From Symbiodinium sp. CCMP2592 (Eukaryota; Sar; Dinophyceae; Suessiales; Symbiodiniaceae): a DNA stretch of 64,000 nucleotides. Each line of letters begins with the position of its first letter. The first letter of the stretch is position 1. Position numbers and translations under genes: made by a program. Below the pieces are notes generated by a model. It saw only the letters and a program-made list of their open reading frames with translations, was not told where the DNA came from and searched no databases. The DNA is taken from NCBI GenBank assembly GCA_905221615.1, contig CAJNDT010000947.1, forward strand, positions 46,971-110,970. Direction: 5' to 3'. Positions 10,835-61,606 of the stretch are shown here, piece by piece.

Positions 10835-11524
10835 GTCTGTATGTCGCAGCTCGTTTCACCTGCACAGGTAGTTTGCGCTTTTCTTTGTTGTTTGGTAGTT
10901 CTTGTAGTTCTTACTGGGACCGAGTACAGCAACTTGCTGCTTTGAGGCCCGCCCACGCCAAAAAACGGGGTGAACAAGGCCGTTGTTTGGTGGGGAAGGT
11001 CTGTGGAGTGCCTGCTGGATTCTTGGCGTGGCCTTCGATACGACATCGTTGTGGACTTGTGTGCACCATCGCAACACAAGAGGACCTTGGGGCTGGCTGT
11101 TGTTCAAAAGAACTAGAACGGCGGCCCGAGCTCCGACTTTGGACTCTACCGGTGGTCTTGGACAGCTCTAGGCAGCGCCAGATTTCTCTTTCCGCATAAT
11201 TGCTGTTTGTTCGTTCCCGAGCTCGGACAGGCCTTTCTACTGCAGTCTGCAATTCACCCAGGTTTCTCCGGCACTGGTTCAATTTTGTTGCGGACTTTGA
11301 AGGGCTTTGAGGGTGGAGCAAGGCTTCCAGGGGTTCAAGAGGCTTGAAGAGGCTTCGAAGGGGGGCTTTAAGGGATTTTGAAGGGACTTCAAAGGGAGCT
11401 TCCGACGGGGCGGCTTGAAGGAAAGGGGATGAAGGGGGTTTCGAAGCCTTCAAAAGGGGGGTGCAACACGTTGTGTTTTCTTCAAATTTCCCCATAAATC
11501 GAGTTCGTGTGGCTTCTTCTTTTG
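10835..11524. other. Intergenic region with degenerate purine-rich repeats
   Basis: No gene is seen. From about 11290 to 11460 the plus strand repeats variants of GGCTTGAAG / AAGGGGCTT, giving a purine-rich low-complexity tract. It ends at the left direct repeat of PLE-1. The last 60 bp resembles the sequence around 23042-23105 just beyond the right repeat (GGCTTCTT...TTTTGTG), which may be chance. Confidence 0.4.
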
Positions 11525-11959
11525 TGTTTGTGTTATTCTGCTGTACATGCGACAAACCTGCATTCACATGTTCACTTTTCCTCGGCATTTCTGGTTGAAT
11601 TTCGTTGTTGGTTTTTGCTTTGACCCATGATTTTTCCTGTTTTCATGTTCTTTTTGCTTTTAAGTTTGCAGGGGGCGTGGCGGTCACATCCTAGCCACGC
11701 CAACGAAGCTATGGATGTTGACTGGATGGGTTCACAGACGTGTGAGCCTGTACCTGCGAAAAAGCTGGGCCCCTGAGCCAGCGAGATTAGAAAAAAGTTT
11801 CTTTTGAACAAGGCAGGTTTGCAGGTTTGAACACGTCTTTCGCTTGTTTTGAAGTTTTGCACGGTTGCTACAATCTGTTTGAACATGTCCATGAGAGTAT
11901 CCGCATCGGACGATCAGAACATCCAGAAGGCCGGGTCAGTAGGAGCCTTTCCAGTTGTG
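11525..11959 (+). repeat. Left 435-bp direct repeat of PLE-1
   Basis: Base-for-base comparison with 22580-23014 shows no difference from the T at 11525 to the G at 11959, a constant offset of 11,055. Such identity implies recent insertion or gene conversion. The repeat contains no ORF of its own on the plus strand. Confidence 0.85.
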
Positions 11960-12193
11960 TTCGGCAAGAGCTCCCTCACGAGGGCCTTGTCGCTATTCGG
12001 CGAAGTTGCCGGCCCACCGGGGTTCTTGTGTTAGCAGGTCTGGAAATCAATTCCGTTTCACAACATGTTCAAGTGGAGATCACTGAGTGGAAATCGCATT
12101 TCTGGAAATCAGATCGGAGTTGCATTCTGGAGTCGCTTCTTGAGATCATTCCGGCTTGAGCTTTGCAGTCAGTTGTTGCTCTCATTTGCTGCC

Positions 12194-13582
12194 ATGGATC
12201 GTGAACGTTCCCCCCGCCGCAATCCTTTCTGGAGCTCCTCTTTGCCTGCTTCGGTCCCACCTACCCCTGAGAGTTGGCAGCACCCTGCTCCCCGACCCGC
12301 CCCACCAGTGAACAGACCGGCAGTGCTTCAGCCACAAAATCTTACGTGGCAACCCAATCCACGCATTGCTCAGATTATGAACATCTCGCCAACCCCTCGC
12401 ATTCCAGGCCTCCCTTCCCCTCCTGCTGCAAACTCCCCGAGAGTCTTCGGCCCGATGATGCCCGCTGAGTTTTGCCAGAACCCAAATTATTTGGATTCCC
12501 GTTGTATTGCAGGCTTGAACTTGGCCCGTTGGGTAAAGAAGACTGATTGGACAGTTCGAAAGCAGATTGATGGATGTCCGACCCACATGATACCGCTTCA
12601 CTCGTTGCTTTATCAAGGTTGGAATTCGTATTGGGTGCGCCACATTGCCGAAGGAAAGCCGACTTTCTTTGCAGGCTTCAAATCGATCGGTGAAGTTGTA
12701 TTTTGCCATGCCTTGTTTGGAAAGTTGCGAGATGAAGACGTCGACTTGGATGAGCTTGCCTCTATTGTGCTTGGTATCAGTGACCCAGCTTCCAAGAGCA
12801 GCGGTTCGGATTCAAAGTCGCAGGCCACACATTTGCTGGCACAGAAGGTCGTTGACTACATGCTAGGTCTGTATCCTCAGGCCTCTGTCGACACAGAGAA
12901 GGCAGCCATGGCCAATCAGATTCAGATTCTTCAACAACAACTTGCGAATTTCGAGAATGCTTCCCCCTCCCGATCTTCTAATCCAGAGGTTGCAGGTTCG
13001 AAAACGTTGCCGATTGAAGAAAGCCCCCAAGGACGTGTGCCGGAGTCTGCGCCCTCAGCTCAGAAAGTTCCGGATGGTGCCACTCGCCTTCTTCGTGGTC
13101 AGACGGCTGAGCCTAAAACCAGTCTCATGCAGGCATTCCAGAAAGGCAAACCATCCGGGAATCACGCTGAACCTTTGAGTGTCGAGCCCGATGAAGCTGA
13201 GACCCAGAGTCGCAACCCAGGCAATTCGAGTTCAGCTCCTCAGCCTGAGTATGGAACATCCTCGCATGTTGGACAGGTTCTGAAGATTGTTCTCACGGAT
13301 CCCAGCAAACGTCACTTCTTGAGTCGCAGTTGGAAGGCTTGCAAGTCGGACAAAGAAGTATCGACGTGGATTGAAGGATTGAACTTGAGCAAGAACAACC
13401 GACAGAAGCTCCAAACATGGACAGCTCATGTCCAACGATGGCATGCGGACCTTCCTTCCAATGAGCAGGCCGAATTGGATCAGGTTGTTGCCAATTGGGG
13501 CGTACCCATCCGTGACATTCCCAAGCTTAAGGCGAATTCTCTGCTCCGTATTCTTGCTGCCGGAACAATTCTCGTGGCTTGA
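12194..13582 (+). CDS. PLE-1 ORF1: Gag-like protein
   Basis: About 460 residues from the ATG at 12194 (MDRERSPRRNPF). An in-frame upstream ATG at 12065 exists, but it opens a stretch of different composition. A Pro-rich N-terminal part is followed by a compact hydrophobic/aromatic domain (LARWVKKTDWTVRKQIDG), a short heptad-like helix (IQILQQQLANFENA), a disordered Ser/Pro linker and a basic C-terminal domain (HFLSRSWKACKSD). There is no zinc knuckle. I infer an RNA-binding structural role from its position. It ends in UGA followed by CUA, in frame with ORF2. Confidence 0.6.
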   Translation: MDRERSPRRNPFWSSSLPASVPPTPESWQHPAPRPAPPVNRPAVLQPQNLTWQPNPRIAQIMNISPTPRIPGLPSPPAANSPRVFGPMMPAEFCQNPNYLDSRCIAGLNLARWVKKTDWTVRKQIDGCPTHMIPLHSLLYQGWNSYWVRHIAEGKPTFFAGFKSIGEVVFCHALFGKLRDEDVDLDELASIVLGISDPASKSSGSDSKSQATHLLAQKVVDYMLGLYPQASVDTEKAAMANQIQILQQQLANFENASPSRSSNPEVAGSKTLPIEESPQGRVPESAPSAQKVPDGATRLLRGQTAEPKTSLMQAFQKGKPSGNHAEPLSVEPDEAETQSRNPGNSSSAPQPEYGTSSHVGQVLKIVLTDPSKRHFLSRSWKACKSDKEVSTWIEGLNLSKNNRQKLQTWTAHVQRWHADLPSNEQAELDQVVANWGVPIRDIPKLKANSLLRILAAGTILVA

Positions 13583-13588
13583 CTACAG
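13580..13588 (+). promoter_or_regulatory. Candidate readthrough site between ORF1 and ORF2 of PLE-1 (UGA CUA CAG)
   Basis: The stop of ORF1 is TGA followed by CTACAG, and the next frame is the same frame. The context is the same UGA-CUA as at 2614. The first in-frame ATG downstream is 42 codons into ORF2, before the endonuclease motifs, so internal initiation is also possible. Confidence 0.5.
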
Positions 13589-16432
13589 GCCATATTGGAT
13601 GCCAGGGACGTGTATCGCACTGACCATCCGCCACAAGGTTGGTGGAAACGGCACCGAAGTGAAGTGGATTTGCTTCGGAATGCTCATTTATTTTTCCAAG
13701 GTCTCTACGAGACCCCTACCATGTTCGGACGACAATGCATGGATATTGTTATTTGGATCCGTGGAAAACTCCTTTTGCTTGCTTGTGAGTTCGGGCTTGT
13801 ACAGTCGCCATTGACCTCTCAGCTACGTTTAAAATGCTCCAGCTACACCTGGAAATTCTTTCAGACGCAGTCGGTGATCTATTGTCGCATCTTTCTTCAG
13901 CCTGAGTTACAGAAATTCATGTATGTCGGATCATCATCCCAAACACTGGGCGACCGTGAGCGTACAAGATGGGGGAAATTCCAACAGATCAAGGCCGGCA
14001 AGTCAGTGTGCGGTGAACTTTCGTTGTTTTGGCATTATCGACGACAGAATTATCACATGGCCATTCCTCTGTTGATCATGCACGTCCCACAGGCCGATTG
14101 CTTGCACACGATTGAGCAGACTTTTATCAACTTGCTACAGCCTCACCTAAATGCTCCTTGGGTTCGCTCTCTTGTCAGAGCAAAACATGCACAGCTTGCC
14201 AACTCGGATCCAGTCAGATGTGTTCGGCGATTTGTGACCTCGTGGAGAACCTTCCGACGCTTTCGACGTCGGAATTTCCAGCTCACTGGAATGACTCCTT
14301 CGGTCTTCCGGTCGACACACATTGTTCAGAACATTGTATACAGTTATCAGATTCTGTTTGACTTAGCTTCCGACGGGCTGAAGTCCTTCCTTGCCCAAAA
14401 ATATCTGCGCAGCAATCGAGTTGACTCGGATTTTCTCTATAGATTATTCAGGATGGCCACTCATCTGGGTGACCCGTTCTATGAGACGATCTGCAGGTCC
14501 AGATTGAACACTGTTCTGCAATTTCGACAGTTGAGGTGCCCGACTACATGCCGCCCCCTTTCCACTCCGTTCTTGCTACCTGAAGTAGGCTTTAAACGCT
14601 TGGTTCGCGGCATGTTGAGAGATATTCTGGATGTATCGACGGATCGACTGCTGCCGTACCACATTCCAGCGACATCGCTTGTTGCCAAAAGTCACCCTAA
14701 AATCAAGGATGTGCTGTTTTCACATAAACCCATCCTGCAGTCGTGGGACCCGAACGAGGAGCCGCAACACGCTGGTGTCACATGTTGCTGCCATGAACTT
14801 CTTCGACGTCATCCACACCTGACTGTTGTCCAGGGTCACATTGCTTCTTCTGCCACGTTGTTGACCCTGCCACCTGATTTGACTCAGTTGGCCCAGTCCA
14901 GTTGCTCCAATCCGGTATTCATGAACGCCACGGATCATTGGACGATGTTTCTTGAAGACGTGAGGCATTGGATTGATCACCATGGCTTGATGCATTATCC
15001 GACTGTTGATATTCGAAGTGTGTGGCAGAAGGCCTGGAAGCTGCACTCCCAACACGTTGGAACACATTGGTCAGTGGATCAGGTTCGTGAGTTGCGAAGA
15101 AGGACCAACTGCTTGGTGTGGCATGTCCGTGACCATGAAGGCTCGCATGCGCATGTTTTCTGTCCCGTGAAGTATTGGATGATGCTCCAGAACACTTTTA
15201 CTGCTGAATCGGTCTTCAAGCCATTGTCGTTAAATCCCTCGACAATTATGGTTCAGATGGAACATGCAGTGCCACCTCGCATTCTTGAATCCTTTCCCTT
15301 CCGTTTTGGATCTCGTGCTGCCCGTGTGTCATGGGCTTACATTCTCCCCAAGTTCAAGAAAGAATGGAAAGGAGGCAGGCCAATCGTTAGTTTTGCCTCT
15401 CACCCGGCTCGCCAGTTCTTGGTTGTGATGGCGCGAGTCACAGAGATGCTTGTCGCTGAAGTGTGTCCTCACACTCGATCTTACAACGATGCAATCTTGC
15501 TTTGGCAGAACATACATGCTTTCTTTGAGAAGCGATGTCACAGCTCGGATCAAGACAGACAGAAGCTTGCCATGCACAATCAAGACTTGTCAGGTTTTTT
15601 CGTGAGCATTCCACGGGAACGGTTCATGATTACCTTTCGCATATTGCTTTGTCGTTTTTACGACGTCTCGGATGCGGATCTTGATCATGCTTTAAAAGGC
15701 GTTGTGGTGACTGTGGACTTGGAAAACAACATGTCTGTTATGAAAACTATCCGCGGTCGGCATTGCCTGTTGAATGACAAACGAGTGGCCGTCCCAATGG
15801 ACCTATTTCTGGAAGCTGTACAGGTGTCCTTCAAGTTCAATCTATTCATGGTGGGTCAGCAGGCCATTCAACAGATTCGAGGTGCACCGATGGGAAGCCA
15901 CTTTTCCCCGGCAGCTTGCCATGCTGTGGTAAGCCTATACGAGCACATGTACTTCGGCAAATGTCTGTTAGAGTCTTCTCGCCTGCCAACCTTCGGCCTT
16001 GTCGTTCGATATGTCGACAACCGGATGAGTTTGATTCTTGATCGCCATGCCAACTATGCTGCCGTGCAAGCTTTTCTGCACCAAGATGTATACATACCGC
16101 CCATCGTTCTTGAGTATGAGGATGGAGACCTTTTCCTGGGTTTTCATGTGGATGTACAGGAACTACGAGTACAGTATGTCCAGCCTGTTGAGACCTGGAA
16201 GTTCTTGCACCCCAACTCTGCCGCAAACACACGGACACTGTTAAGCAGCTTTCGATCCAGAGCTCACCTGATTGCACGTGCTTCTTGGCCGTTGGAACAG
16301 CGGGAGGCCGATCTCGAACAGCTACTGCAGTCCTATGTACGACAGGGATTCGATCCGCTGCTGATGCACCCCATTCTGAAACGTGTTAGGCTACAGTTTA
16401 ACAATCTTCGCGCTCGCCCGACTGCAGTGTAA
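13583..16432 (+). CDS. PLE-1 ORF2: GIY-YIG endonuclease and reverse transcriptase
   Basis: About 945 residues. Counting from 13595, residues 94-96 read VIY and 110-112 YVG (the GIY and YIG motifs). A conserved Arg cluster lies at 121-125 and the metal-binding Glu at 174 within TIEQTFINLLQPHLN. The RT follows, with NQDLSGFFVSIP (motif A), QIRGAPMGSHFSPAA (motif B) and RYVDNRMSL (motif C; Y806-N809). The second Asp of the usual YVDD is Asn. LEYEDGDLFLGFHVDV fits the later palm motifs. Penelope-like enzymes nick DNA with GIY-YIG and prime cDNA synthesis at the nick. Identification is confident; activity is uncertain because of the Asn. Confidence 0.85.
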   Translation, partial: LQAILDARDVYRTDHPPQGWWKRHRSEVDLLRNAHLFFQGLYETPTMFGRQCMDIVIWIRGKLLLLACEFGLVQSPLTSQLRLKCSSYTWKFFQTQSVIYCRIFLQPELQKFMYVGSSSQTLGDRERTRWGKFQQIKAGKSVCGELSLFWHYRRQNYHMAIPLLIMHVPQADCLHTIEQTFINLLQPHLNAPWVRSLVRAKHAQLANSDPVRCVRRFVTSWRTFRRFRRRNFQLTGMTPSVFRSTHIVQNIVYSYQILFDLASDGLKSFLAQKYLRSNRVDSDFLYRLFRMATHLGDPFYETICRSRLNTVLQFRQLRCPTTCRPLSTPFLLPEVGFKRLVRGMLRDILDVSTDRLLPYHIPATSLVAKSHPKIKDVLFSHKPILQSWDPNEEPQHAGVTCCCHELLRRHPHLTVVQGHIASSATLLTLPPDLTQLAQSSCSNPVFMNATDHWTMFLEDVRHWIDHHGLMHYPTVDIRSVWQKAWKLHSQHVGTHWSVDQVRELRRRTNCLVWHVRDHEGSHAHVFCPVKYWMMLQNTFTAESVFKPLSLNPSTIMVQMEHAVPPRILESFPFRFGSRAARVSWAYILPKFKKEWKGGRPIVSFASHPARQFLVVMARVTEMLVAEVCPHTRSYNDAILLWQNIHAFFEKRCHSSDQDRQKLAMHNQDLSGFFVSIPRERFMITFRILLCRFYDVSDADLDHALKGVVVTVDLENNMSVMKTIRGRHCLLNDKRVAVPMDLFLEAVQVSFKFNLFMVGQQAIQQIRGAPMGSHFSPAACHAVVSLYEHMYFGKCLLESSRLPTFGLVVRYVDNRMSLILDRHANYAAVQAFLHQDVYIPPIVLEYEDGDLFLGFHVDVQELRVQYVQPVETWKFLHPNSAANTRTLLSSFRSRAHLIARASWPLEQREADLEQLLQSYVRQGFDPLLMHPILKRVRLQFNNLRARPTAV

Positions 16433-16569
16433 ACAGACTTTGCTTTCGCTCATGCCCGCGTTTGCATAGTGCTTCAGCCCATGTACCATTGAGCTGGTTG
16501 CTTGCCATGTATCCTTTGCTCGAGAACTTTTGTGCCTTGTATTTTCTGTAGCTTCCTGCAAACTCGACC

Positions 16570-18234
16570 ATGTCCGCGGAAGACAGTCTTAATCTGTTCC
16601 CGAAGTCCTCGGGCCCTCCTGGCCCTGTAAGTGGCTCCGTGGAAATGTATATTCGAAAGAGGGTTGCACAAGAGGTGAACCGAGCCCTTGCACCGCTAGA
16701 CACACTTCCAGCATGGGCACAGCCGACCGGAAGCGCTTCCGGAGGCCGCCGCGCTCTCCCTCCACCACCTGCCCCTCCTTCTTCTTCTTCGACTCCTTCG
16801 CTCCCTCAAGTTCATGTGGATGCTGCACTTCCCCGAGCTCCTCCCCCTTCGCCTTTCTTGACTCTCACTGAAGGAAGTGGATCTTCGGCCCAGTCTATTC
16901 AGATTCATGATGAAGGTATGGCAAATCGGGTTATTGAAAGCCTGACCTCTGTTCGGTTGTTTGGCACTAATCGGGACGATCGGTCAAGGAGCCCGGTTTT
17001 GAAGCCGTGCCCGCCTCTCCCACGAAAGCGTCGTCAGCTTGCCGATGAGGAACGTCTACCTATTGAAGACAAGCCGTCATCCTCCGCCCAGCTTGCTATT
17101 GTTGACGCCAGCCTCGACAAGTATGCAGTTCCGGATGGACCGGAGCTTCCAGCTCCCTCGACCGAATGGGTTTGTGTTCAGCCTTCCTCCGGACCACCGA
17201 TTTGGGTCCAATTTCTGGAACCTACAAAGTTGGACAGGCCTGATGTTCAACATTCGATGTGGCCCCAATTCTATACCATTCGGGCTGTTGCAGGAATGAA
17301 TGTGTGGAATTTCGATCCCACCGCCTCCGAAAAAGAAAAGAAGAAGTATTGGTCTGAGATTGAACGGGTATTGTTACATTACCGGACTGCGATCATGAAG
17401 GACGTCAATCGTATCAAAAGTGCGGCCGAAATTATTGTTCCAGTCTTGCCGACTGGACCCTTTGATCTCCAGGAGAGATGGATAGCTACCATTTTGGCAG
17501 GTGCCGACCATCATGCCAATTACTCATGGTCGGATGCTCAAGGTTACTTTGCTATGGGCCCGGATGCCAAAAAGCAAATTCAGAGCCTTGCCCGTATTCT
17601 ATCCTCCGTGTCTCGCCTTCGCCCTTTTGTTCGAGATGATCTCCAGGCCGGTCGTGGATCTTATTGGTTGTTCCCGGGGAACTCGGACCCGGACACTGGC
17701 CTTATGGATGATGGTTCACATGAAGCTCCCCTAGGAGTTTTCCTTATTTCAACAACGAGGCTTCCGGATGACCCTGCCACCTGTTTCGCTGTGCCCTTTG
17801 TTCACAATACAGTCCCTCAGGACTTGGCTTCGATCATCAATCAGGAAGTTGTCAGACCATCATACTTCGACCGGGCGGACCGCACATGGGTTCCATCCAC
17901 CGGCTTTTACGGCCGCATGACTTGGCCGAAACCTGCTATTCGGCTTCCAAAGCTTGACGGATCTCAGCCGGAGCGTTTGCTCGCTATGAGAAATTCGATG
18001 TTGGGGGCCCGCCGCTTCGGAGGAAAGCAAGTTGATTCTCGTACGTGTGCGGCGCTAGGCTGGACCTTTGTGAGGCAACACACTCATTTCAAGGCTGTCA
18101 ACGCCTCCGATCAAACATTCGGACATCTCGGCGATTTGATTCACGGCCAGGACGGCCGTTGGATGTTTCGTTCCAGTCGGAGTGTCTTAGTCGGCACCGC
18201 TGTCTTTTGGACATCGTGGGCACGTGATGCATAA
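16570..18234 (+). CDS. PLE-1 ORF3: unknown 554-residue protein
   Basis: It starts at an ATG preceded by a pyrimidine tract and TAG (TTTTCTGTAG), a possible splice or trans-splice acceptor. The first 200 residues are low complexity: Pro/Ser-rich with PPPPAPPSSSS and an SRSP dipeptide region. The remainder is a globular domain rich in Trp and aromatic residues (TEWVCVQPSSGPPIWVQ, GRGSYWLFPGNSDPDTG, STGFYGRMTWPKPAI). I recognise no family. It is the third long ORF of the element and shares its strand and spacing, so it is likely part of the element's program. Confidence 0.65.
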   Translation: MSAEDSLNLFPKSSGPPGPVSGSVEMYIRKRVAQEVNRALAPLDTLPAWAQPTGSASGGRRALPPPPAPPSSSSTPSLPQVHVDAALPRAPPPSPFLTLTEGSGSSAQSIQIHDEGMANRVIESLTSVRLFGTNRDDRSRSPVLKPCPPLPRKRRQLADEERLPIEDKPSSSAQLAIVDASLDKYAVPDGPELPAPSTEWVCVQPSSGPPIWVQFLEPTKLDRPDVQHSMWPQFYTIRAVAGMNVWNFDPTASEKEKKKYWSEIERVLLHYRTAIMKDVNRIKSAAEIIVPVLPTGPFDLQERWIATILAGADHHANYSWSDAQGYFAMGPDAKKQIQSLARILSSVSRLRPFVRDDLQAGRGSYWLFPGNSDPDTGLMDDGSHEAPLGVFLISTTRLPDDPATCFAVPFVHNTVPQDLASIINQEVVRPSYFDRADRTWVPSTGFYGRMTWPKPAIRLPKLDGSQPERLLAMRNSMLGARRFGGKQVDSRTCAALGWTFVRQHTHFKAVNASDQTFGHLGDLIHGQDGRWMFRSSRSVLVGTAVFWTSWARDA

Positions 18235-18469
18235 GTGATTGTTGATGCCTCCTTAACCCCGGTTGTCTTCGCTTGTTTTCTTCCTGCTTCAGAGTGAATA
18301 AGACCAATCGCTTGCCCACATTCTGAGTGTTGCACTCCGCCGTGGACCGTACGCCTGAAAACTTAACTGACCGGATGCTAGGGTTTGCAGTCTCAAGTGG
18401 CTAATGCATTGCAGCGCTTGTGCATCATTTCGTCTTGTGTGCTGAACTTTTGCTCAGTCCCATGTAAAC
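18235..18469. other. Inter-ORF spacer in PLE-1
   Basis: No gene is seen. It ends with a pyrimidine-rich stretch and an AG (TTTTGCTCAG) about 15 bases upstream of the ORF4 ATG, a plausible trans-splice acceptor. Confidence 0.35.
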
Positions 18470-19570
18470 ATGTCCACCATAGAGCGTAGCCCTTTTGATG
18501 TAGATGCCGATGGTTTCAATTTTCAGTCACTGGACGAGTTGGCTTCATGTCTATTCCGTATTCTTGATGGTATTCCTCCACGGATGTGGTTGAGTTACAG
18601 TCGAAAGAAGGTGCGATCTACAGACCAAGCTCATGCAGATCAGATATTGCTTGGCTTGTATTCTGGCGTGCAGTCTCGAGGAAGATTGCAGTTTACAAAG
18701 AACACATTCCGGTTCCCTGGCCTTACCAAGTTGATTGTCCGAATGCTACATTATTCTCCCCAATTCTCGGATCTTGCAGATACCAGTATACAGATCAATC
18801 GCAATGTCCGGACTATTCCGCACAGAGATTCAAACAATCACGGCCCAAGCATTGGCTGGGCCATTGGAGATTGGACAGGTGGAGAATTATTTGTTGTGGA
18901 AGACCGAGGTCGCTTTACATATACAGTTGATGATTTCAATTGCAATGTTGCATCGCATGGTGCTCACTTGACAGGCAGACTCTTGGATGTCAGACAACCT
19001 TGCTGCTCTGACGGAAATGTGATTCATGCTACCATGCCGTTCACTGGAACTCGAATCATGATGGTTCTTTTCTGTGTCAAGCAACATGTTCCCGTTTCAC
19101 CCCATGCCTCTTGTCTCTCTTTTGCTCGTTTTCTCGGTCTTCGTGTTCCTGTTCGTTCCTCTCTTTCCTCGTTTGTTCCCTCCGGCCCTCTCTTCTCGTC
19201 TCCTCCGTTGTCTTTGTCTGCCTTTCCTTTCTCCTCGTCTGGTCGGTCCTTGTCCTCGTCGGTTCTGTCTCCTCCTTCTTCTCCCTCTCTTCCTCTTCTT
19301 CCTCTTCCGTCTGGTCCTCCCCGTCCGTCTGCTCGTCCTCCGTTGTCGTCTCTTTCTCCTGCTTCCTCGGTTGCCTCCCTCGCGTCTTCGTCGGTTTCCT
19401 TTGGCCCTCTCCGCGTTTCCTCTGTTCCCTCTTGTTCCTCCTCTCTGCGGTCTTGGTCCTGCTCCTCCTTTCCTGGGTCTTCTTGCTCTTCTTTTGTTGT
19501 TTCTTTCTCTGACTGTAATGCTGACGATTCCGACGAACCATGTCAGAGTGACATGTCACTTGACGCATAA
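18470..19570 (+). CDS. PLE-1 ORF4: 2OG-Fe(II) oxygenase-like protein with Ser/Pro tail
   Basis: A 366-residue protein from ATG. Residues about 75-207 form a double-stranded beta-helix pattern: IPHRDSNNHG gives the iron-binding HxD (H118, D120), WTGGELFVVED is the next strand, and VIHATMPFTGTRIMMVLF gives the distal His (H186) and the 2OG-binding Arg (R195). The same layout, including the FxGG(x)(I/L)W strand, appears at the N-terminus of pol in YR-B, YR-C and YR-D. The family hydroxylates proteins or removes methyl groups from nucleic acids; the substrate here is unknown. Residues 210-350 are a Ser/Pro/Leu tail encoded by a strikingly T/C-rich strand. Confidence 0.7.
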   Translation: MSTIERSPFDVDADGFNFQSLDELASCLFRILDGIPPRMWLSYSRKKVRSTDQAHADQILLGLYSGVQSRGRLQFTKNTFRFPGLTKLIVRMLHYSPQFSDLADTSIQINRNVRTIPHRDSNNHGPSIGWAIGDWTGGELFVVEDRGRFTYTVDDFNCNVASHGAHLTGRLLDVRQPCCSDGNVIHATMPFTGTRIMMVLFCVKQHVPVSPHASCLSFARFLGLRVPVRSSLSSFVPSGPLFSSPPLSLSAFPFSSSGRSLSSSVLSPPSSPSLPLLPLPSGPPRPSARPPLSSLSPASSVASLASSSVSFGPLRVSSVPSCSSSLRSWSCSSFPGSSCSSFVVSFSDCNADDSDEPCQSDMSLDA

Positions 19571-19701
19571 AAGATTGCTTCAGGTGCGCTGCGTGCATTC
19601 GCATCGTATGCCTCTCACTCTCTTTGCATTGGTCAGCATGCATGTCTTCAGGCAAGTTTGTTGCATGTGCTCAAGAAGTATGCTCCACCAATCGATAGAC
19701 C

Positions 19702-20169
19702 ATGACCCGTTGCCAGTTTCGTGATGTTTGGATGGAAGATGCGCCTCGATTCTGCATATTCTCTTTTCTTATGGTACGCAGCAGTGTGCATGTCAGCACA
19801 CAGAGATGTGACAATCCCGATTCTTGCCGAAACCTGCAGCACGTCCAGTGGCAGCGATGGTTGATACATGGGTTGGGACGTTGTTTTCAAGCACACAATT
19901 ACCATGGACTGTCCAATGACTCTGCTACTTTCAACTTTACACATCTTCTTCCACGATGCAGTGAGTCCTTCCTGTGCCTGTCAGTGCAGTGTCGCGCTGT
20001 GACATTGCGACATATCAAGTTTCTGATGCGATTACGAGTTTGCCATGGTTCTCGATTGAAGCCCTCTTGTACATACCAGCTTATGTGTATCGAGACATGT
20101 TGGTGCCAACTTCACCAAGTTACGTTTTCGGCATGTGAATTTCCTGCTGCACATGTTCGAGTTATCTAG
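19702..20169 (+). CDS. PLE-1 ORF5: hypothetical Cys/His-rich protein
   Basis: A 155-residue ORF from the ATG at 19702 with many Cys and His residues but no recognised motif. It fits the series of plus-strand ORFs, but the coding signal is weaker than for its neighbours and it could be a chance ORF or a poorly conserved exon. Confidence 0.35.
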   Translation: MTRCQFRDVWMEDAPRFCIFSFLMVRSSVHVSTQRCDNPDSCRNLQHVQWQRWLIHGLGRCFQAHNYHGLSNDSATFNFTHLLPRCSESFLCLSVQCRAVTLRHIKFLMRLRVCHGSRLKPSCTYQLMCIETCWCQLHQVTFSACEFPAAHVRVI

Positions 20170-20292
20170 GCGGCTGTGAGGTCAAAAAAGTGTCCGCCAC
20201 TGTTCTGTCCATTTGTGTGCCTCAGTTTGCCAAAAAACGTGAGTCTTGGCAGACGTTGGTTCAAGTATTTATGCACCAATGTTCATGTATCA

Positions 20293-20877
20293 ATGTCTGG
20301 CTCTTTGCTGAGCTGCAATGACATAATCAGCAGCCTGGATGGAGATCAAGTCACTGCTCTTTTTCAGATCTTGGGAGATCGCCGGCAGAGGGCAGTCTTT
20401 CTTTCTCATCTTCGACGTCGGATTCAGAACGATGCGGATGCCCTTGTTGCACAACATCTTGGTGCTCCCTCCCACTCTGTCTCTGTGCCCTCTGTCCCTT
20501 CGTTGTCTTCTTTTCTTGCTCCCTCTCCTTCTCCCTCTCCCCTTCCCCCTCCTCCTCCTCCCCCTCCTGCTTTTCCTCCTCCTCTCCCTGTTTCCTTCTC
20601 TGCTTCTGGCCGTTTTCCTTTTTCTCCCTCTCCCTCTCTTCCAGATACCTCTCTTGGCGCTGTTTCGAGTGACGCTGCACCGATAGTCATGGATGGATCG
20701 ACTCTTTCGGACCCTCAACAGCGTGGCGCATTGCCTCGTCGACGGCAACAGACTGCTCCTGCTGCTCGGAGAAGCAGATCTACGAGTGAATCGGAGGTTC
20801 GCGAGAGATCCCGTTCGAGATCTAGGTCAAGATCAAGCACCACTGTTTCACCCGGAGGTTCTCGTCATATCAGGTAA
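20293..20877 (+). CDS. PLE-1 ORF6: Pro/Ser-rich protein with C-terminal RS repeats
   Basis: About 194 residues from the ATG at 20293. An N-terminal helical segment (DIISSLDGDQVTALFQIL, then RRQRAVFLSHLRRR) is followed by a Pro/Ser/Phe-rich stretch and an Arg/Ser-rich C-terminus (RSRSTSESEVRERSRSRS). RS domains are typical of splicing factors and of proteins that bind them. The stop codon overlaps CAG-GTAAGC, a near-perfect splice donor, so the protein may continue in a spliced form. The plus strand is heavily T/C-biased in the middle of the ORF, as in ORF4. Confidence 0.5.
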   Translation: MSGSLLSCNDIISSLDGDQVTALFQILGDRRQRAVFLSHLRRRIQNDADALVAQHLGAPSHSVSVPSVPSLSSFLAPSPSPSPLPPPPPPPPAFPPPLPVSFSASGRFPFSPSPSLPDTSLGAVSSDAAPIVMDGSTLSDPQQRGALPRRRQQTAPAARRSRSTSESEVRERSRSRSRSRSSTTVSPGGSRHIR

Positions 20878-20970
20878 GCCAGACGTACGATGAAGACAAA
20901 ACTGTTGTCCCGAACTTGCTTGCAACTTCTGAGGCGCAGACATGTGTTGTGCTTTCTTGCTTTCTTGCAG
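20874..20970 (+). other. Candidate 97-bp intron or trans-splice region at the end of ORF6
   Basis: It begins GTAAGC after CAG and ends in a strong pyrimidine tract with TTGCAG at 20965-20970. Joining would extend ORF6 by only about a dozen codons. The same acceptor could instead receive a spliced leader for the next ORF (ATG at 21009). Confidence 0.35.
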
Positions 20971-21008
20971 CATCATACTTTGCAGTTGCTTACGGCTCAA
21001 TTTGTAAG

Positions 21009-21341
21009 ATGAAGCGAACAGCAAGTATGGCGGCCCTTCCGGCCCCAGCTCCGATGGTCAGGATTCCAGTTGTTATTCCTCCGGATATATGCTCTGGCGG
21101 ACGTGAGATGGGTTTCTGGCTTTCTTTGCCTACAGATTCTACGATCGATGACTTGAAGAGGAAGGTGTGCGATGAGCTTGCGAACCGCACGGGGATTCCA
21201 CCCCGTTTGAACGCCTTCCAATTACGGCAATTTGGTCAACATTTACCATTCACATCTTCGATTTCTCGAGTTGCTGCCTTTCCGCATACTACGCAGTCAG
21301 TTCACTTTGTGAGAACCTGGCCACACGAATCATCGTGGTGA
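21009..21341 (+). CDS. PLE-1 ORF7: ubiquitin-like domain protein
   Basis: About 110 residues from the ATG at 21009 (MKRTASMAALPAPAPM). The core shows the ubiquitin-like pattern: a beta strand (GFWLSLPTDS), then TIDDLKRKVCDEL for the main helix, a TGIPPRLNAFQL turn like the GIPPxxQxL of ubiquitin, and LRQFGQHLPFTSSI for the next strand and turn. There is no C-terminal Gly-Gly, so conjugation is unlikely and a scaffold or adaptor role fits better. It sits just upstream of an F-box-like ORF, which hints at interaction with the ubiquitin machinery. Confidence 0.5.
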   Translation: MKRTASMAALPAPAPMVRIPVVIPPDICSGGREMGFWLSLPTDSTIDDLKRKVCDELANRTGIPPRLNAFQLRQFGQHLPFTSSISRVAAFPHTTQSVHFVRTWPHESSW

Positions 21342-21510
21342 ACTTGTACAGTGTGCTGATCATAAAATAAATGCTGTATTGTGGTCCGTTATGCGAGCTC
21401 ATGAGTTTTTGTTGCTTTTGCAATCTTCCAGTTGTCCTTCTTTCACTGCAGGATGTGAGCCCGAATGTTACGTAGTGCCTTCCGAAGGGTGTAGACTTTT
21501 CCTTGACGCC

Positions 21511-22002
21511 ATGTGGGAACTTACTGTTCTGACTGAGAAAGTGCTGACTTTTATCAGCACCCGACGCCATATAATTTTCTTCTTCACCTTCCCTGCATTA
21601 GATCCACTTGAGACTCTGGATGTTACTCTTCGCAGACATGGATTTCATACGATGTATGATCTTGAACAGTTCGTCACACAATGCAGAACAGAAGGGATGG
21701 ATCTTCGTGCTGAAGTATGGGAGTTCTTTATGCAAGGACCCAGTGTGTACACGCCGATTACATGTGAAGCTCCCGCCTCACCTCATATTGTGGTGTATGC
21801 GTCCGTATGCAAAGAATGGTATTACACTATTATCCGATTGGTTGGCGATCGCACATTCTTCAATATTCAGCAGCTTTGGCGTCTTGCCCAAGTGCGCCAT
21901 GCCAATGTGGAATGGATTCATCACTCCAATGAAGACCGAGTGCGTATTGGGTCGGCTTTTATTGATGATCTTACTGTGCGCCGCATTGTTCACCCACTGT
22001 AA
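21511..22002 (+). CDS. PLE-1 ORF8: F-box-like protein
   Basis: About 163 residues from the ATG at 21511; the frame is open further upstream to about 21379. A helical N-terminal half is followed by SPHIVVYASVCKEWYYTII and RLVGDRTFFN. This resembles the second half of an F-box and the corresponding part of the ORFs at 8515 and 9348 (a MAWASTSRRLYSAV..GxxxFF layout). The similarity is by eye and remote. The C-terminus (IDDLTVRRIVHPL) is at a TAA. The function is uncertain. Confidence 0.4.
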   Translation: MWELTVLTEKVLTFISTRRHIIFFFTFPALDPLETLDVTLRRHGFHTMYDLEQFVTQCRTEGMDLRAEVWEFFMQGPSVYTPITCEAPASPHIVVYASVCKEWYYTIIRLVGDRTFFNIQQLWRLAQVRHANVEWIHHSNEDRVRIGSAFIDDLTVRRIVHPL

Positions 22003-22153
22003 AGTGTAGAATCGACCTGGACTTGAGCGGATCATGCCACATGAGTATAAATGGTGTCCCTGGTCATGCGAGTCTTGACATGTGGCCCTAGGATTGCCTT
22101 CTTTCGTGCTGATCTGTAGTGCTCAAGCTTTTTTGAAGTCTCAGTGCGTAATC

Positions 22154-22504
22154 ATGTCGTCCAGTGGTCGTCGTACTCTTCGTTATGAACCAGGGTCGAG
22201 GCGAGCCAGCGATGACAATTTGGAGGATATTGTGCAAACATCAGCTGCCGAGGCCCTCGATGCTCTCCGCTCTAACGACATTCACCCACAAGACCTTATT
22301 CGGTTGATGCTTCGAGTTGTCGAAATCCTACGTGATTCTTCGGACTTTCAACAAAGGATGTCACGATGCTCCGGATTATGCTCTCATCCGAACTGTGGTC
22401 GTGTATGTGCTCGTGCAGACGAAGGTCACAATCATTGCCGATGCTATTACCACCAGGTTATTGACCGCAGTGAGAGAGCCATCAAGAAGCGTAGACATCA
22501 ATAG
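22154..22504 (+). CDS. PLE-1 ORF9: small Cys/His-cluster protein
   Basis: 116 residues from the ATG at 22154 (MSSSGRRTLRYEPG). A helical middle (DLIRLMLRVVEILRDS) leads to a compact Cys/His cluster (CSGLCSHPNCGRVCARADEG, then HNHCRCYYH) likely to bind zinc, and a basic C-terminus (AIKKRRHQ). It could be a nucleic-acid-binding protein. It is the last ORF of the element, about 75 bp before the right direct repeat. Confidence 0.5.
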   Translation: MSSSGRRTLRYEPGSRRASDDNLEDIVQTSAAEALDALRSNDIHPQDLIRLMLRVVEILRDSSDFQQRMSRCSGLCSHPNCGRVCARADEGHNHCRCYYHQVIDRSERAIKKRRHQ

Positions 22505-22564
22505 GCTTGCTGCTCACACGATGATTGGGAACAGTCGCAAAAGACCTGCACCTTGATGCTTCGT

Positions 22565-22578
22565 GCCCCTCCGGGGGC
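22565..22578 (+). repeat. GC-rich hairpin just before the right repeat of PLE-1
   Basis: GCCCC-TCC-GGGGGC can fold into a tight hairpin two bases before the repeat starts. It lies at the 3' end of the unique part of the element and could mark RNA end recognition or processing. Confidence 0.4.
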
Positions 22579-22579
22579 C

Positions 22580-23014
22580 TGTTTGTGTTATTCTGCTGTA
22601 CATGCGACAAACCTGCATTCACATGTTCACTTTTCCTCGGCATTTCTGGTTGAATTTCGTTGTTGGTTTTTGCTTTGACCCATGATTTTTCCTGTTTTCA
22701 TGTTCTTTTTGCTTTTAAGTTTGCAGGGGGCGTGGCGGTCACATCCTAGCCACGCCAACGAAGCTATGGATGTTGACTGGATGGGTTCACAGACGTGTGA
22801 GCCTGTACCTGCGAAAAAGCTGGGCCCCTGAGCCAGCGAGATTAGAAAAAAGTTTCTTTTGAACAAGGCAGGTTTGCAGGTTTGAACACGTCTTTCGCTT
22901 GTTTTGAAGTTTTGCACGGTTGCTACAATCTGTTTGAACATGTCCATGAGAGTATCCGCATCGGACGATCAGAACATCCAGAAGGCCGGGTCAGTAGGAG
23001 CCTTTCCAGTTGTG
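22580..23014 (+). repeat. Right 435-bp direct repeat of PLE-1
   Basis: Copy of 11525-11959 with no difference seen. Similarity ends at the G at 23014, where the flank (ATGCGTTTGC) differs from the left copy. Confidence 0.85.
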
Positions 23015-25993
23015 ATGCGTTTGCTTTGACTTTCATTTTATTTTCTTCACAAAAAACCCATGAAGTTGCGTGGCTTCTTTGCTCTTTTGTGTTCGTGATT
23101 GTGTTTGGTTTGAGTTTGTAATTCTTTTTTCATTTTAGTTTTGTTTCTTCTTATGTTGTTGTTGTGATTGCGTTTTGTTTCATTCAATCTGTTTTTCTCA
23201 TTTATTTTCTTCGCAAAATTGGGGAATCGCAAAAAAAAGATTTGCCGTGCAGCACTAGCAGTGGTTCCGTCAAGTGGGTTGCAGTTCGTATGTGTCGAAT
23301 TAACGGGCGGGGTAGAGGTCGATCGATTGCATTGTAAAACGCTATGATCTACTGTTTTGTTTGGTCGGAATTCTCAAGTGAGTTTGCGCAAAGAAGTTGG
23401 AAAGCAATGTTTTTGGCGTGCTTGATTGGCTGAGACAGCATTTGAAGAAGCACTGTTTGGATATTCCAAAAAAAAAAGAAGACAAAGACGGAATTTCCGC
23501 AGAACCTGCAAGTGATGGTGTCAGACACCGACATGTTTGAAGGGCACATCCGACAACAGCAAGCAAGTTTAATTGCAACATATGGAGTTTAATTCTAAAA
23601 AAGCTTGGAGCGAAAAGCCCTTCCAAAAACGTGTGCACTGCAAGGAGTCTCCCCTGTTCGCTAACTACCACACTGTGAATGCATTTGAGATGGGCCAGTG
23701 TTGAACCTTCATGCAACCAGATTTATTTCTTGTCTATTGAGGTGATGAGCCCTGAAGTTGTCACTCCCTCTTGTGTCCATGTTTCAAAACTGCGCTGTGT
23801 TGCAGTGTAGTCTCTGGCTGTTTCGTTCATGGGGTAAGTCCTTCTCCCCGGTTCCGGTCGGAACTCGCTCTAGAACGTACCCCAGATGGCTCAGAGCTGG
23901 CTTTTGGCCGAAAAGTGCCCGCAAAGTGGGAGTTGTTCGATCTCCTTCTCACCACAGGCGTGAAGAAGGACCTGCATCCGCAGAAGCAAGCACAACTTCC
24001 AGGTGCTTTCAAGGGTTCCGGGCTTAACCGCGTGCTTTCAGGTTTGGGGCTCAACTGGAGGGCAAGCTTGAAGGTTCAAGGTGGCGGGCTGAACTAGCGA
24101 GAAGCCTTACGTTTCGGGCTGACTGAAAGCTGTAGGGGCTGTTTACGTTCAGCAATCTGGTGGCCCTGGTGGCAAGTTGCTGTCTTTGCCGCAAGCTTGA
24201 GCAACTTTAGGGTTTCGGATTCAACTGGCAGCAAGTTTCGGCCTCCACCGCACACTTTGAGGGGCCAACTGCAAGTTTTGAGGAGTTTGGATTCAACCCA
24301 GCTTTTAACGGGCTCCAGACCATGTCTGAGGCTCAGACGGGGAACTGGCTCGCTGCCTGGCGTGACACCCGTAATCGCCGTAATCCCCGTAATGTATGCC
24401 TTCCCGTAATTGTTGCGACTCTTGTTTGCAAAATCTCCATTGCATTGCCGGCAAGGTTCTTTAAAAGGCGTAGTGGAGAAGTGATGAAAATAACAGCCAC
24501 TCAAGAACAGCCAACATTGAAAGCCGGAAACACCAATTTGAGAGAACACTGACCTTTGACATCAAAAGAACCCTAACTCTTGAAACCCTATGTTGAAACA
24601 CTTGCCACGTGCAAGATTACTGCGAGAGCGGGACTGAAAGTGAAACAAACCAGAAATCATTCAATCTTTGGTTGACATTCCCAATTTCGCTTCCAGAACA
24701 GCCCAAGTTGTTGGCAGATGCGAGTATCCTCGCCGGAGTTGCTTTTGAGTATTCAAGCATACTCAAGATCGGTGGAGTTGGACCTCGATCCTCTCTGAGG
24801 GAAGCTTGCTGGCGTCAAGCGTCGTCAGCGTCTGCCCTCCAGGCGATGAGCGGCCATCTTGAAAACTTTGTTTTCCTCTTCCCCTTTGCAGATGCAGTGC
24901 AGGCTGGGATTGAGGACCTATGGATGCCACAGTGGTGTGAGTCTCAGTTTCGAGCTTGCAAGAAGCACTCAGAGGCATGCCTGAAGCTCAGCATTAGGTT
25001 GGAAGAGAACTCTAGAAGTGGCAGGTGCGAGAGTTTGTGTGACTTTGTGACAGGTGAGGCAATGAGAAGAAAGGCTTATCCTCTGGTGTTCGCAAGGCTG
25101 CCGACGTTCCAGCCTCCAGCGCTGGGCTTGTGAGGAACTCATTCTCGCACTTACCGCCATTGCCGTTGAAGACCGAGCATCAGAATATTGCACCACACCC
25201 ATGCAACTAAACAGATGACCCTTTGTGTTCTTGCGAGGTTTGTGATCACGAGGAAGACTGATATGGATCTCAATGGATTTCTCTCGAGAATTGAAGGCAG
25301 GATAATACGTGAAATGCATCATGTTCTTATGGTTGCGATTATCCTGAGCGTGTGCAAATCCTTGCAGGCTCCTTCCGTTCGGGCAGCAGAGCCTTGAACC
25401 AACCACATATGCATTTGTTTGTTCCTCAGCTTCGGCTGTGAAAAGTTGGCTTTGAAGTGTTGCAACGCATGCGTAGGAGAAGTACAGCACGCCATTGCCA
25501 TCGGACGCTGACCTCAGGTCGGCCAAAAGGGACATGGCCGCCATCTCAGTAGCACAGTTCGCGCAAGAGCGATTCGGTGTGCGCTGTTTTTGTCATGGCT
25601 GTGTGTGATTTTTTCTACACACACGTGTAGTGTGGGCAGGAGTCCGGAGCATGTGCTACTTCCCGGCCACAAAGGTTACATCCTTCTGTGTGTCCAGGCA
25701 ACGCAGGCAAAAACATGATTGTTCCAAGTCTGGCTGGTCGTATACCGATACATTTCAAAAATGCTCAATGAGGAGTGTTTTTGTTTCTCAATGATTGAAT
25801 AAGTGTGTTATATATTCCCCAATATTCCCCAAACGGTATATTTTTTGAAACTCTGTTATTCAAAGAACAAGTAATTGCTTCTTGATGTAACTCTTTGTCT
25901 CATTGCGGCCGTGTCGGGCGACTGGCGCCGAGGTTTGCTCAGTACGCCCGAGCGCTTCTGGGTGACCCCTGGGTATGCCCGGGTAGAAGGCTA
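23015..25993. other. Gene-free stretch between PLE-1 and YR-B
   Basis: No convincing gene is seen. The first part is T-rich. Between about 23990 and 24310 there are degenerate repeats of a GCAAGCTTGAAGG / GGATTCAACTGGC type, similar in style to 11290-11460. The longest ORF (plus strand, 24609-25133) has no recognisable domain and an opposite-strand competitor, so it is not called. Confidence 0.4.
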
Positions 25994-38344: not shown

Positions 38345-38669
38345 GGGGGCATTCAGGACGCTGCTCCCTTGATCTTGGAAATCTCAGCTTGCCAAACCCG
38401 AGATGCTTGATCATCGGTTTGGCCGGAGCTGTGGGGGCTCCTGAATCAGAATTCACCCTTGATCACCGTGCGAATAAAAAGAGTGTGGCGCGAGAGTTCT
38501 GTGAATCCTCATTTAACTTACATTGTGAGGATCTCTGATACAATATATCTTTTACTGATTGATCTTGCCATATTCCGAGATGGATTGATTTTTATATGAT
38601 TGGCATCGCTTTGATACGTGATATCTGATATCACTCGACCTTTGCGAAACATCAGGTTTTTGAAAGAAG
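38345..38669 (+). repeat. B1 repeat of YR-C (325 bp)
   Basis: Matches 38884-39208 with no difference seen. It begins four bases after the pol stop and overlaps the start of A2. Confidence 0.85.
38618..38634 (+). repeat. Perfect inverted repeat in B1 of YR-C
   Basis: GTGATATCTGATATCAC lies 30 bp left of the B1/A2 junction and is duplicated in B2 at 39157-39173. It is a candidate recombinase-binding site; YR-D has a longer-spaced inverted repeat at a comparable distance. Confidence 0.5.
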
Positions 38670-38858
38670 AACATTTTCTGCTTGCAGACTTTTCTTTCTT
38701 TTAAAAACCTGACAGGCAGCAGAGCTGCCGTGTTTTGCATGTGAGTTTTGAAGAACATTTCTTGCATGAGAACTTTCATTGTCTTTGAATAAGCAGATCG
38801 GATACCTTTGGCTTTCCCGCGAGTCTGCTCAAAGAGAGAGGCAAGAAATTTTTCTTTC
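38664..38858 (+). repeat. A2 repeat of YR-C (195 bp)
   Basis: Copy of A1 (30277-30471). Its last C is the first base of the four-tract C-rich motif at 38858-38872. Confidence 0.85.
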
Positions 38859-38872
38859 CCACCCTCCCACCC
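38858..38872 (+). repeat. Four-tract C-rich (G-quadruplex/i-motif) sequence at the A2-B2 junction of YR-C
   Basis: CCCACCCTCCCACCC has four C3 runs with one-base spacers, so the opposite strand can form a G-quadruplex. It is absent after A1. Equivalent motifs occur at the same place in YR-B and YR-D. Confidence 0.65.
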
Positions 38873-38883
38873 AATGCGGACGG

Positions 38884-39208
38884 GGGGGCATTCAGGACGC
38901 TGCTCCCTTGATCTTGGAAATCTCAGCTTGCCAAACCCGAGATGCTTGATCATCGGTTTGGCCGGAGCTGTGGGGGCTCCTGAATCAGAATTCACCCTTG
39001 ATCACCGTGCGAATAAAAAGAGTGTGGCGCGAGAGTTCTGTGAATCCTCATTTAACTTACATTGTGAGGATCTCTGATACAATATATCTTTTACTGATTG
39101 ATCTTGCCATATTCCGAGATGGATTGATTTTTATATGATTGGCATCGCTTTGATACGTGATATCTGATATCACTCGACCTTTGCGAAACATCAGGTTTTT
39201 GAAAGAAG
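38884..39208 (+). repeat. B2 repeat of YR-C; right end
   Basis: Second copy of B. It ends in AAGAAG, after which the YR-B gag frame resumes. Confidence 0.85.
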
Positions 39209-46889: not shown

Positions 46890-47215
46890 AACTGATTAAT
46901 GAAATCAACCTGCTTTTGCCCCTGCTGGACTCTCCGAGAATTCTTTATTTTAAAATTGCTGCGGAACGCACAGGCATGCCCCTCCACAGACAGAGTTGTT
47001 GACGGTTGGTCAGTGTCGTCACATGCATGGGTGATCAGGAGCGCATAATTGTTTGCGTAAGGAATGGAATTGACGGATCTTGACGACCGACAAATTTTGG
47101 CAGCATTCGGGCTTTTCTGGAAGCCTCACACCCCCGCCTGATTCCCATCGTCGGTCCAGTAGCAGCCGCCCAGCAGGTTCGAATAAGGCCCGTCGTTGTG
47201 CAGATCCTGGAAATC

Positions 47216-48587
<1,372 letters not shown>

Positions 48588-48636
48588 GCTTGTCCACCCG
48601 AGGCCGCAAGTGTTTAAGCACAATTAGAAGATCCCG

Positions 48637-48655
48637 AGGTTGATGAAATCAACCT
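48637..48655 (+). repeat. Perfect hairpin at the GAPDH unit junction
   Basis: AGGTTGAT-GAA-ATCAACCT lies 49 bp after the copy 1 stop. It recurs almost intact at about 50397-50415 after copy 2, while the left edge of unit 1 has only the right arm. It could be a 3'-end processing signal or the point at which units recombine. Confidence 0.5.
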
Positions 48656-48959
48656 ACTCTTGCCCCTCTTGGGCTCTCCGAGCTTATTTTTCCTTATCGC
48701 TGCCGAGCACGCAGGCATGCCCCTCCACAAACAGAGTTGTTGACGTTTGGTCAGTGTCGTCACAACCATGGGTGATCAAGAGCGGATAACTGCTTGCGAG
48801 GAACGGGGTTGGTTGTTGTTTGGCACTGATTGACGGATCTTGACGGTCGACAAACGTCCGTAGCACTCCGGCCCTACCCCCCTGATTCCCATCGTCGGTC
48901 CAGTAGCAGCCGCCCAGCAGGTTCGAATAAGGCCCGTCGTTGTGCAGATCCTGGAAATC

Positions 48960-50346
<1,387 letters not shown>

Positions 50347-61590: not shown

Positions 61591-61606
61591 CCCGCCCGCC
61601 CGACCC
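61590..61606 (+). repeat. Four-tract C-rich motif at the A2-B2 junction of YR-D
   Basis: CCCCGCCCGCCCGACCC has four C tracts with one- or two-base spacers, in the same place as in YR-B and YR-C. Confidence 0.6.

Follow-up and report, generated by a model that had tools for sequence, protein, structure and literature searches.

In the Naiad and Chlamys clades of Penelope-like elements (PLEs), a GIY-YIG nuclease domain lies N-terminal to the reverse transcriptase (RT), and TET/JBP oxygenases are carried by KDZ-type and other transposons. PLEs are typically 4–6 kb in size (PMC6431247), and both pLTRs in tandem and hammerhead ribozymes have been described in them (PMC11167929). The Terminons of bdelloid rotifers, which are Athena PLEs, reach up to 40 kb with accessory open reading frames (ORFs), and are endonuclease (EN)-deficient, telomere-attached and mostly 5′-truncated (PMC6431247). 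According to a 2025 paper, PLEs had gone unreported in telonemids, stramenopiles, alveolates and rhizaria until its own find in a brown alga (PMC12477816). Here, an 11,490-bp unit was analyzed in a 64,000-nucleotide stretch (the window) of the dinoflagellate Symbiodinium sp. CCMP2592 (contig CAJNDT010000947.1, positions 46,971–110,970). The unit is bounded by two direct repeats, holds nine plus-strand frames inside them, one of which has GIY-YIG and RT motifs, and is likely a dinoflagellate mobile retroelement, in a complete copy that probably inserted recently. A literature search found no description of such an element in a dinoflagellate. New here, and missed by a first-pass annotation made from the letters alone, are an in-phase UGA link between ORF1 and RT, a TGTTTGTG-like target site, and a related and abundant second family.

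Structure, copies and selection

The first-pass annotation had described 435-bp repeats without difference around a GIY-YIG/RT ORF and about eight other plus-strand ORFs. This was borne out: the repeats are each exactly 435 bp and 435/435 identical, and all nine frames are under selection (see below). The GIY-YIG/RT frame has also been counted as 945 residues; it has 949 codons when counted from the ORF1 stop. The parts of the unit are as follows (LTR, long terminal repeat; motif positions were read by eye).

11525–11959, plus strand: 5′ terminal direct repeat (LTR-like); starts TGTTTGTG and ends CCAGTTGTG, termini that correspond in complete units
12194–13582, plus strand: ORF1, in Gag position; ATG at 12194, frame open from 12065, TGA stop at 13580–13582 in the context TGA CTA
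13583–16432, plus strand: GIY-YIG and RT frame; 949 codons from the ORF1 stop, same frame as ORF1, first ATG at 13721
13874–13882 (VIY), 13922–13930 (YVG) and 14114 (E), plus strand: GIY-YIG motif
15374–15388 (GRPIV), 15584 (D), 15881–15898 (GAPMGS) and 16010–16021 (YVDN), plus strand: RT motifs
16570–18234, plus strand: ORF3, 554 residues; C-terminal stretch similar to the H-x-T ... VRPS region in the ART-like protein of family 2
18470–19570, plus strand: 2-oxoglutarate/Fe(II)-oxygenase-like frame, 366 residues; H-x-D at 18821–18829, H at 19025–19027, R at 19052–19054
19702–20169, plus strand: 155-residue frame, type not assigned; third-position bias, dN/dS
20293–20877, plus strand: RS-rich protein; ATG at 20293; third-position bias, dN/dS
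21009–21341, plus strand: 110-residue protein; ATG at 21009, N-terminus MKR; related to the 116-residue protein of family 2
21511–22002, plus strand: 163-residue protein; ATG at 21511; no profile support
22154–22504, plus strand: Cys/His-cluster protein; ATG at 22154; dN/dS, third-position bias
22563–22579, plus strand: GC-rich hairpin-like sequence GCCCC..GGGGC; abuts the 3′ repeat; present in the 11 units printed, loop variable
22580–23014, plus strand: 3′ terminal direct repeat (LTR-like), identical to the 5′ repeat

The 1.098-Gb assembly was searched (5383 contigs, written here as C and a number; the window is part of C947). In line with a dinoflagellate host, the 21-base spliced leader of dinoflagellates was found in it 429 times (217 + 212; reversed control 0). 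The RT frame gave at least 51 matches (48 of 1165 candidates scored), most of them full copies with an open 949-residue frame. Thirteen further units or copies were picked from the best RT matches, so that truncated copies are under-sampled, and were examined (C3846, C4135, C48, C4936, C5284, C1580, two on C686, C1913, C201, C2735, C136 and C5130). Of the 13, 10 were complete units with a repeat at either end (C3846, C4135, C48, C4936, C5284, C1580, C201, C2735 and both on C686), giving 11 complete units with that of the window. All nine frames were present in 11/11 and the order in DNA alignments was constant; some frames were broken in some copies (e.g., ORF1 and ORF3 of C201). The outer ends, TGTTTGTG ... 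GTTGTG, correspond in the 11 units, with departures at the outermost bases in C4135 and C2735. Genome-wide, the oxygenase frame was found at the expected offset in 57/64 RT places, at a median distance of 2.9 kb from the RT core, and the 163-residue frame also in 51/64, where RT places were 64 of the 76 listed rows at ≥60% identity, with 12 second pieces or fragments excluded; second pieces were also excluded from the match lists of the two downstream frames. The first-pass annotation had staked its 11-kb unit on other copies with the same ORF order, and against copies holding only ORF1 and ORF2 between the repeats; within this genome the order recurs as above, and none of the complete units examined had ORF1 and RT alone between repeats.

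The remaining three examined copies were interrupted or decayed. On C1913, the second repeat and the 163-residue frame lie ~37 kb from the first repeat on the same contig (C1913:250924–288887, repeats ~37.5 kb apart, with a ~26-kb stretch apparently inserted in the copy). C136 lacked the downstream genes in the 12.5 kb examined, with an oxygenase frame ~12 kb further on, and C5130 retained ORF1, RT, the beginning of ORF3 and an incomplete left repeat, the second repeat being absent from the 12.5 kb examined. Copies lie deep within contigs, e.g., ~284 kb into the 920-kb contig C1913 (telomeric repeats not searched). Two mirror-image RT pieces were seen at C1247:2857–6295 (junction ~4.57 kb), and two copies 15.44 kb apart at C2868:71525 and 86965 have equally spaced oxygenase frames and resemble a segmental duplication.

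Terminal repeats were near-identical within a copy: 435/435 in the window, 445/445 in C3846, C4936 and C5284, 434/436 in C4135, 420/423 in C48, 490/492 in C1580, 99.7% in C201 and 98.4% in C2735. Between copies, for which repeat alignments of <80 bases were dropped, repeats were ~75–98% identical to those of the window and several were alignable in part only. The pattern is best explained by both repeats being copied from one template at each insertion. On C686, three repeats bound two tandem units, the middle repeat being shared as in PLEs and some LTR elements; the left repeat lacks ~70 bp of the middle one. Outside the element, the window has near-identical direct repeats at 47133–50337 (~1.75-kb spacing), 38345–39183 (539 bp) and 61000–61923 (624 bp).

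The ratio of non-synonymous to synonymous substitution (dN/dS) was determined for each frame against the diverged copies C201, C2735 and C686 (dS 0.26–0.98) and was 0.05–0.30 across all nine. It was lowest for RT (0.05–0.07; 0.02–0.08 across copies overall), followed by ORF3 (0.06–0.09; 0.06–0.12 in diverged copies overall), ORF1 (0.08–0.12; 0.07–0.18 in copies with dS >0.03), the 163-residue protein (0.11–0.18), the 155-residue frame (0.12–0.17), the 110-residue protein (0.16–0.20), the Cys/His frame (0.16–0.30), the oxygenase-like frame (0.21–0.26) and the RS-rich frame (0.25–0.27). Third codon positions held most mismatches in 9/9 frames, the codon period being weakest in the last third of the oxygenase, which is of low complexity. 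Sequence lying between frames had no steady period and was more diverged than the frames. All nine frames are under purifying selection and, given these ratios, are not chance ORFs.

Junction, target site, second family and downstream proteins

The stop of ORF1 is TGA in 14/14 copies of the window's family (family 1), followed by CTA in 13 and CTC in 1, and the RT frame is open from the codon right after this stop, in phase with ORF1. The 46 codons from the stop to the first RT ATG are open and alignable as protein, with changes commonest at third positions in six more diverged copies; C1580, the seventh copy compared, has three changes and does not show this. In the single family-2 copy examined, ORF1 likewise ends TGA CTC with RT in phase, and there is a further stop inside RT. 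In human cells, UGA-CUA on its own is enough for 1.5% readthrough (PMC4132726). From the conserved in-phase UGA-CUA/CUC we infer that an ORF1–RT fusion would be made by Gag-Pol-like UGA readthrough.

Motifs of the RT protein were assigned by eye. The GIY-YIG pattern reads VIY-x13-YVG-S-S..R..E..N in family 1 and VVYC..YIGSTS..R..E..N in family 2. The RT motifs are GRPIV, NQDLSGFF, RGAPMGSHFSPA and YVDN, then LFLGF. The motifs of both domains were invariant in 10 aligned rows and largely retained in the family-2 copy. Partial matches to GIY-YIG (E 0.006) were also seen in 987-residue frames at C114:780276, C2112:702798 and C3124:600353, possibly another family of GIY-YIG elements.

For the target site, empty relatives were sought with six joined-flank sequences (the sixth shortened by 14 bases at its end), and two junction-spanning matches of >90% were obtained (C5284 and C3846). 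The C5284 copy sits in a tandem array (C5284:171733–226497, units mostly ~3.72 kb apart) whose neighboring units serve as empty sites, the empty unit reading ..CTCACCGCG TGTTTGTG GAGACC.., the eight bases at the insertion point being the element's first eight. The empty relative of C3846, on C3924, has TGTCTGTG at the insertion point (one match, no control match). In these two resolved cases, insertion is at TGTTTGTG-like targets. The right flank of the C686 array starts TGTTTGCG. In C4135 the outer left repeat starts CGTTTGTG and the outer right end lacks its last G, and in C2735 a single base is changed at the outer right end. In both, the inner copies of the repeat are normal at these positions, so that the element's outermost bases may derive from the target.

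A search with the RT core also returned a second family at ~30% identity, most of its members having open frames of ~925 residues; the RTs of the two families are ~26% identical. Family-2 gene content was taken from one example (C3139, 12 kb), in which ORF1 is homologous to that of family 1 (E 3e-20), as is the GIY-YIG/RT frame (E 3e-33). Twelve inter-family protein pairs, preselected by eye, were compared with 1000 shuffles each; four were positive (ORF1, RT, the 110-residue protein and ORF3/ART) and eight negative. The 116-residue protein of family 2 aligned to the 110-residue protein with a score of 66 (shuffle mean 25; 0/1000 shuffles reached the score), and the ART-like region, a label read by eye, aligned to ORF3 with 0/1000 shuffles as good and an hhalign E of only 0.019; neither pair was significant by plain BLASTP. 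No relation was detected between the Cys-rich proteins of the two families (210/1000 shuffles as good), and no relatives of the oxygenase, 155-residue, RS or 163-residue proteins were seen in the C3139 example. By these comparisons, the four shared genes look ancestral and the rest family-specific.

The family-2 116-residue gene was found at 95–100% identity in at least 150 places (of 608 candidates). It lies 2.95–3.24 kb from RT in 48/61 family-2 RT places (61 of 73 listed rows, at 29–35% identity, compared with 50 of the 150 listed places of the gene). On C3139, RT cores are 11.49 kb apart and 116-residue places likewise ~11.5 kb. A listed RT core lies 3.99–4.31 kb downstream (start to start) of the ART/ORF1 junction in 29/40 listed places; the ART-like gene therefore precedes ORF1 at these places, and gene order differs between the families.

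Three of the first-pass protein names (oxygenase-like, RS-rich and Cys/His cluster) agree with the sequence. For "ubiquitin-like" (the 110-residue protein) no support was found, and for "F-box-like" (the 163-residue protein) there was no support either, including from profiles. A multi-copy frame, often of 239 residues, is ~28% identical to part of the 163-residue protein and occurs on at least 10 contigs (C256, C2868:630548, C130 and others). In the oxygenase-like frame HxD..H..R is invariant in 7 rows. The frame has no Pfam match of its own, and its AlphaFold model (7 rows) was unusable (mean predicted local distance difference test, pLDDT, 32). Its relatives in other frames of the genome (32–36% identity) coincide at five places (C4878, C4667, C3613, C5003 and C2369) with weak Tet_JBP matches (E 0.04–5.6, under the curated cut-off), which hint at a weak and transitive TET/JBP link. 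Weak TET/JBP-like matches were also seen in other long, high-copy frames, many of 848–1291 residues, and on C2001, C5319 and C5002. These high-copy frames are probably other retrotransposons, and oxygenases on mobile elements may be general in this genome.

Proposed replication and alternative explanations

In the proposed cycle, ORF1 would be an abundant Gag-like product, and a minority of ribosomes would pass the UGA to yield an ORF1–GIY-YIG–RT fusion. The GIY-YIG domain would nick a T/G-rich target, the RNA 3′ end (..UUGUG) would pair with the nicked target, and RT would copy the RNA by target-primed reverse transcription. Pairing of the other end (TGTTTGTG) on the second side would let the ends blend with the target with no extra duplication. 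The seven downstream proteins would be accessory factors: the TET/JBP-like oxygenase may modify DNA, for which 5-hydroxymethyluracil-rich dinoflagellate DNA is a candidate substrate, and the remaining ones may target the host's RNA processing or its defences. For expression of the downstream frames, trans-splicing of a spliced leader is offered purely as a guess; a search of the window for a spliced-leader relic found none.

Several results weigh against a mobile retroelement that works in this way. The RT and GIY-YIG assignments are purely motif-based. The second aspartate of motif C is asparagine (YVDN) in 10/10 rows and the family-2 copy, rather than YxDD, so polymerase activity is not assured. 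Nothing useful was obtained for the RT protein from Pfam or PHROGs, and PDB profile searches gave no RT and no nuclease (NCBIfam and PADLOC were not searched). With the Pfam GIY-YIG model run on the genome, the element was not listed among 150 of 240 candidates scored, and the AlphaFold model of the RT protein (12 rows) was unusable at a mean pLDDT of 38. RNA structure 3′ of the UGA was not convincing (z −0.5 to −2.9, nine sequences, plain shuffles). At the boundaries, an exact target-site duplication was found in 0/7. The other units of the array adjoining the C48 insertion lack TGTTTGTG at the corresponding position, and from them it seems that ~20 bp was lost. The window's own site had weak (69–74%), T-rich matches only and no readable empty relative. 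The repeats of C2735 differ elsewhere too (98.4%), so that its end change may be a later mutation.

The strongest alternative, which falls just short of an even chance, is a true PLE of an N-terminal GIY-YIG clade (Naiad/Chlamys type) that has captured host genes. It would account for the GIY-YIG motif N-terminal to the RT motifs in both families, for the tandem units and for the GAPMGS motif B, and Chlamys-group elements have been reported in a brown alga (PMC12477816). Against it, the ends of the eleven complete units are complete rather than variably truncated, although sampling favored good copies. An Rfam scan of 11400–23200 at E ≤10 gave no hammerhead or other ribozyme, its single weak match being unrelated and outside the element. 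Since four genes recur in the distantly related second family, some of the cargo seems to be ancestral and not a recent capture.

Somewhat more tentatively, the two distant families may form a retroelement class of their own. Such a class would have arrived, independently of retroviruses, at a layout with a Gag-like ORF1, a leaky UGA-CUN and a nuclease/RT of GIY-YIG rather than integrase type, with accessory genes; it would be LTR-bounded in family 1, would keep a core of ORF1, RT, ART-like and 110-residue genes, would prefer TGTTTGTG, and would possibly be infectious and possibly alter host DNA bases through the oxygenase.

An endogenised reverse-transcribing virus, or one still making particles, is unlikely. 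ORF1 would then be capsid or nucleocapsid, ORF1–RT would be Gag-Pol and the downstream frames accessory, which suits the retrovirus-like order, the in-phase UGA, the genes behind RT, the terminal repeats, and two families that have ORF1, RT, an ART-like region and the 110-residue protein in common and other genes different. Against it, capsid, envelope, protease and integrase were unrecognised by Pfam or PHROGs: the nine frames had no useful Pfam match to integrase, protease or RVT_1/RNase H, and seven window frames gave none useful in PHROGs (a weak "protease" match in the RT frame had E 0.39). No RT relative was found in IMG/VR or in prokaryote contigs (two short peptide patterns each) or, using the RT part, in a phage collection, and plasmids gave six chance-level matches, to an ABC transporter alone. 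High copy number and tandem units fit a transposon too.

A circular element that replicates as DNA, uses short homology to integrate at TGTTTGTG and has RT as just one of its genes is distinctly improbable. Head-to-tail units (C686; ~11.5-kb spacing in C3139), ends that match the target and the absent target-site duplication agree with it, but no recombinase or DNA polymerase was recognised, RT is the frame with the lowest dN/dS in diverged copies, and reverse transcription would be expected to leave near-identical repeats within a copy. That the unit is mis-assembled, or that host genes happen to stand in a row between two repeats, draws on nothing beyond the general difficulty of repeats in assemblies and can be dismissed: many contigs whose flanks differ have the genes in this order, selection acts on the frames and two empty sites are clean.

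Comparison with known systems

The mobile retroelement favored here is like the EN-containing PLEs (Penelope/Poseidon; Naiad/Chlamys) in having GIY-YIG and RT motifs in one frame. Tandem units with shared pLTR-like repeats are also as in PLEs (PMC11167929). Unlike PLEs, for which 4–6 kb (size from PMC6431247) and one or two ORFs are typical, it has 11.5 kb and nine frames, a complete repeat at either end in the eleven complete units, an RT in phase behind a UGA, and a YVDN motif, and a hammerhead (common and not universal in PLEs) was not found. Of the Penelope-like element with cargo proposed by the first-pass annotation, the multi-copy, 11.5-kb mobile unit stands, while class membership, drawn from motifs read by eye, is plausible and not shown.

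That annotation had also called the unit an undescribed expansion of the class, which overlooks the Terminons, PLEs of up to 40 kb with accessory ORFs that are EN-deficient and telomeric. Large RT elements, several accessory ORFs and head-to-tail arrays are common to Terminons (PMC6431247) and the present element, which differs in having a GIY-YIG-like domain, ends that do not vary and copies lying far inside contigs. The order LTR, ORF1, stop, pol-like frame, accessory frames, LTR is that of retroviruses and large LTR retrotransposons (Burro, foamy-like endogenous retroviruses; PMC6431247), as are direct long terminal repeats regenerated at insertion. Unlike in these, DDE integrase, protease and envelope were unrecognised, a GIY-YIG-like nuclease motif is present, and target homology at 2 sites takes the place of a 4–6 bp target-site duplication (0/7 boundaries). 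KDZ-type and other transposons with TET/JBP oxygenases are likewise mobile elements with a 2-oxoglutarate oxygenase; here the carrier is a retroelement and the TET/JBP relation is weak and transitive.

Fitting neither Terminons nor LTR retrotransposons (no integrase recognised, no duplication), and yet retrovirus-shaped and LTR-bounded, the element is provisionally placed close to PLEs, with membership unproven. A dinoflagellate element of this kind, 11 kb long, LTR-bounded and probably recently active, with a junction like that of Gag-Pol and accessory genes under selection, would represent a second retroelement route to a retrovirus-like form. The ~200 listed places in two families (64 for family-1 RT and 150 listed for the family-2 116-residue gene) make it possible to test readthrough, integration primed by GIY-YIG and an oxygenase carried on a transposon.

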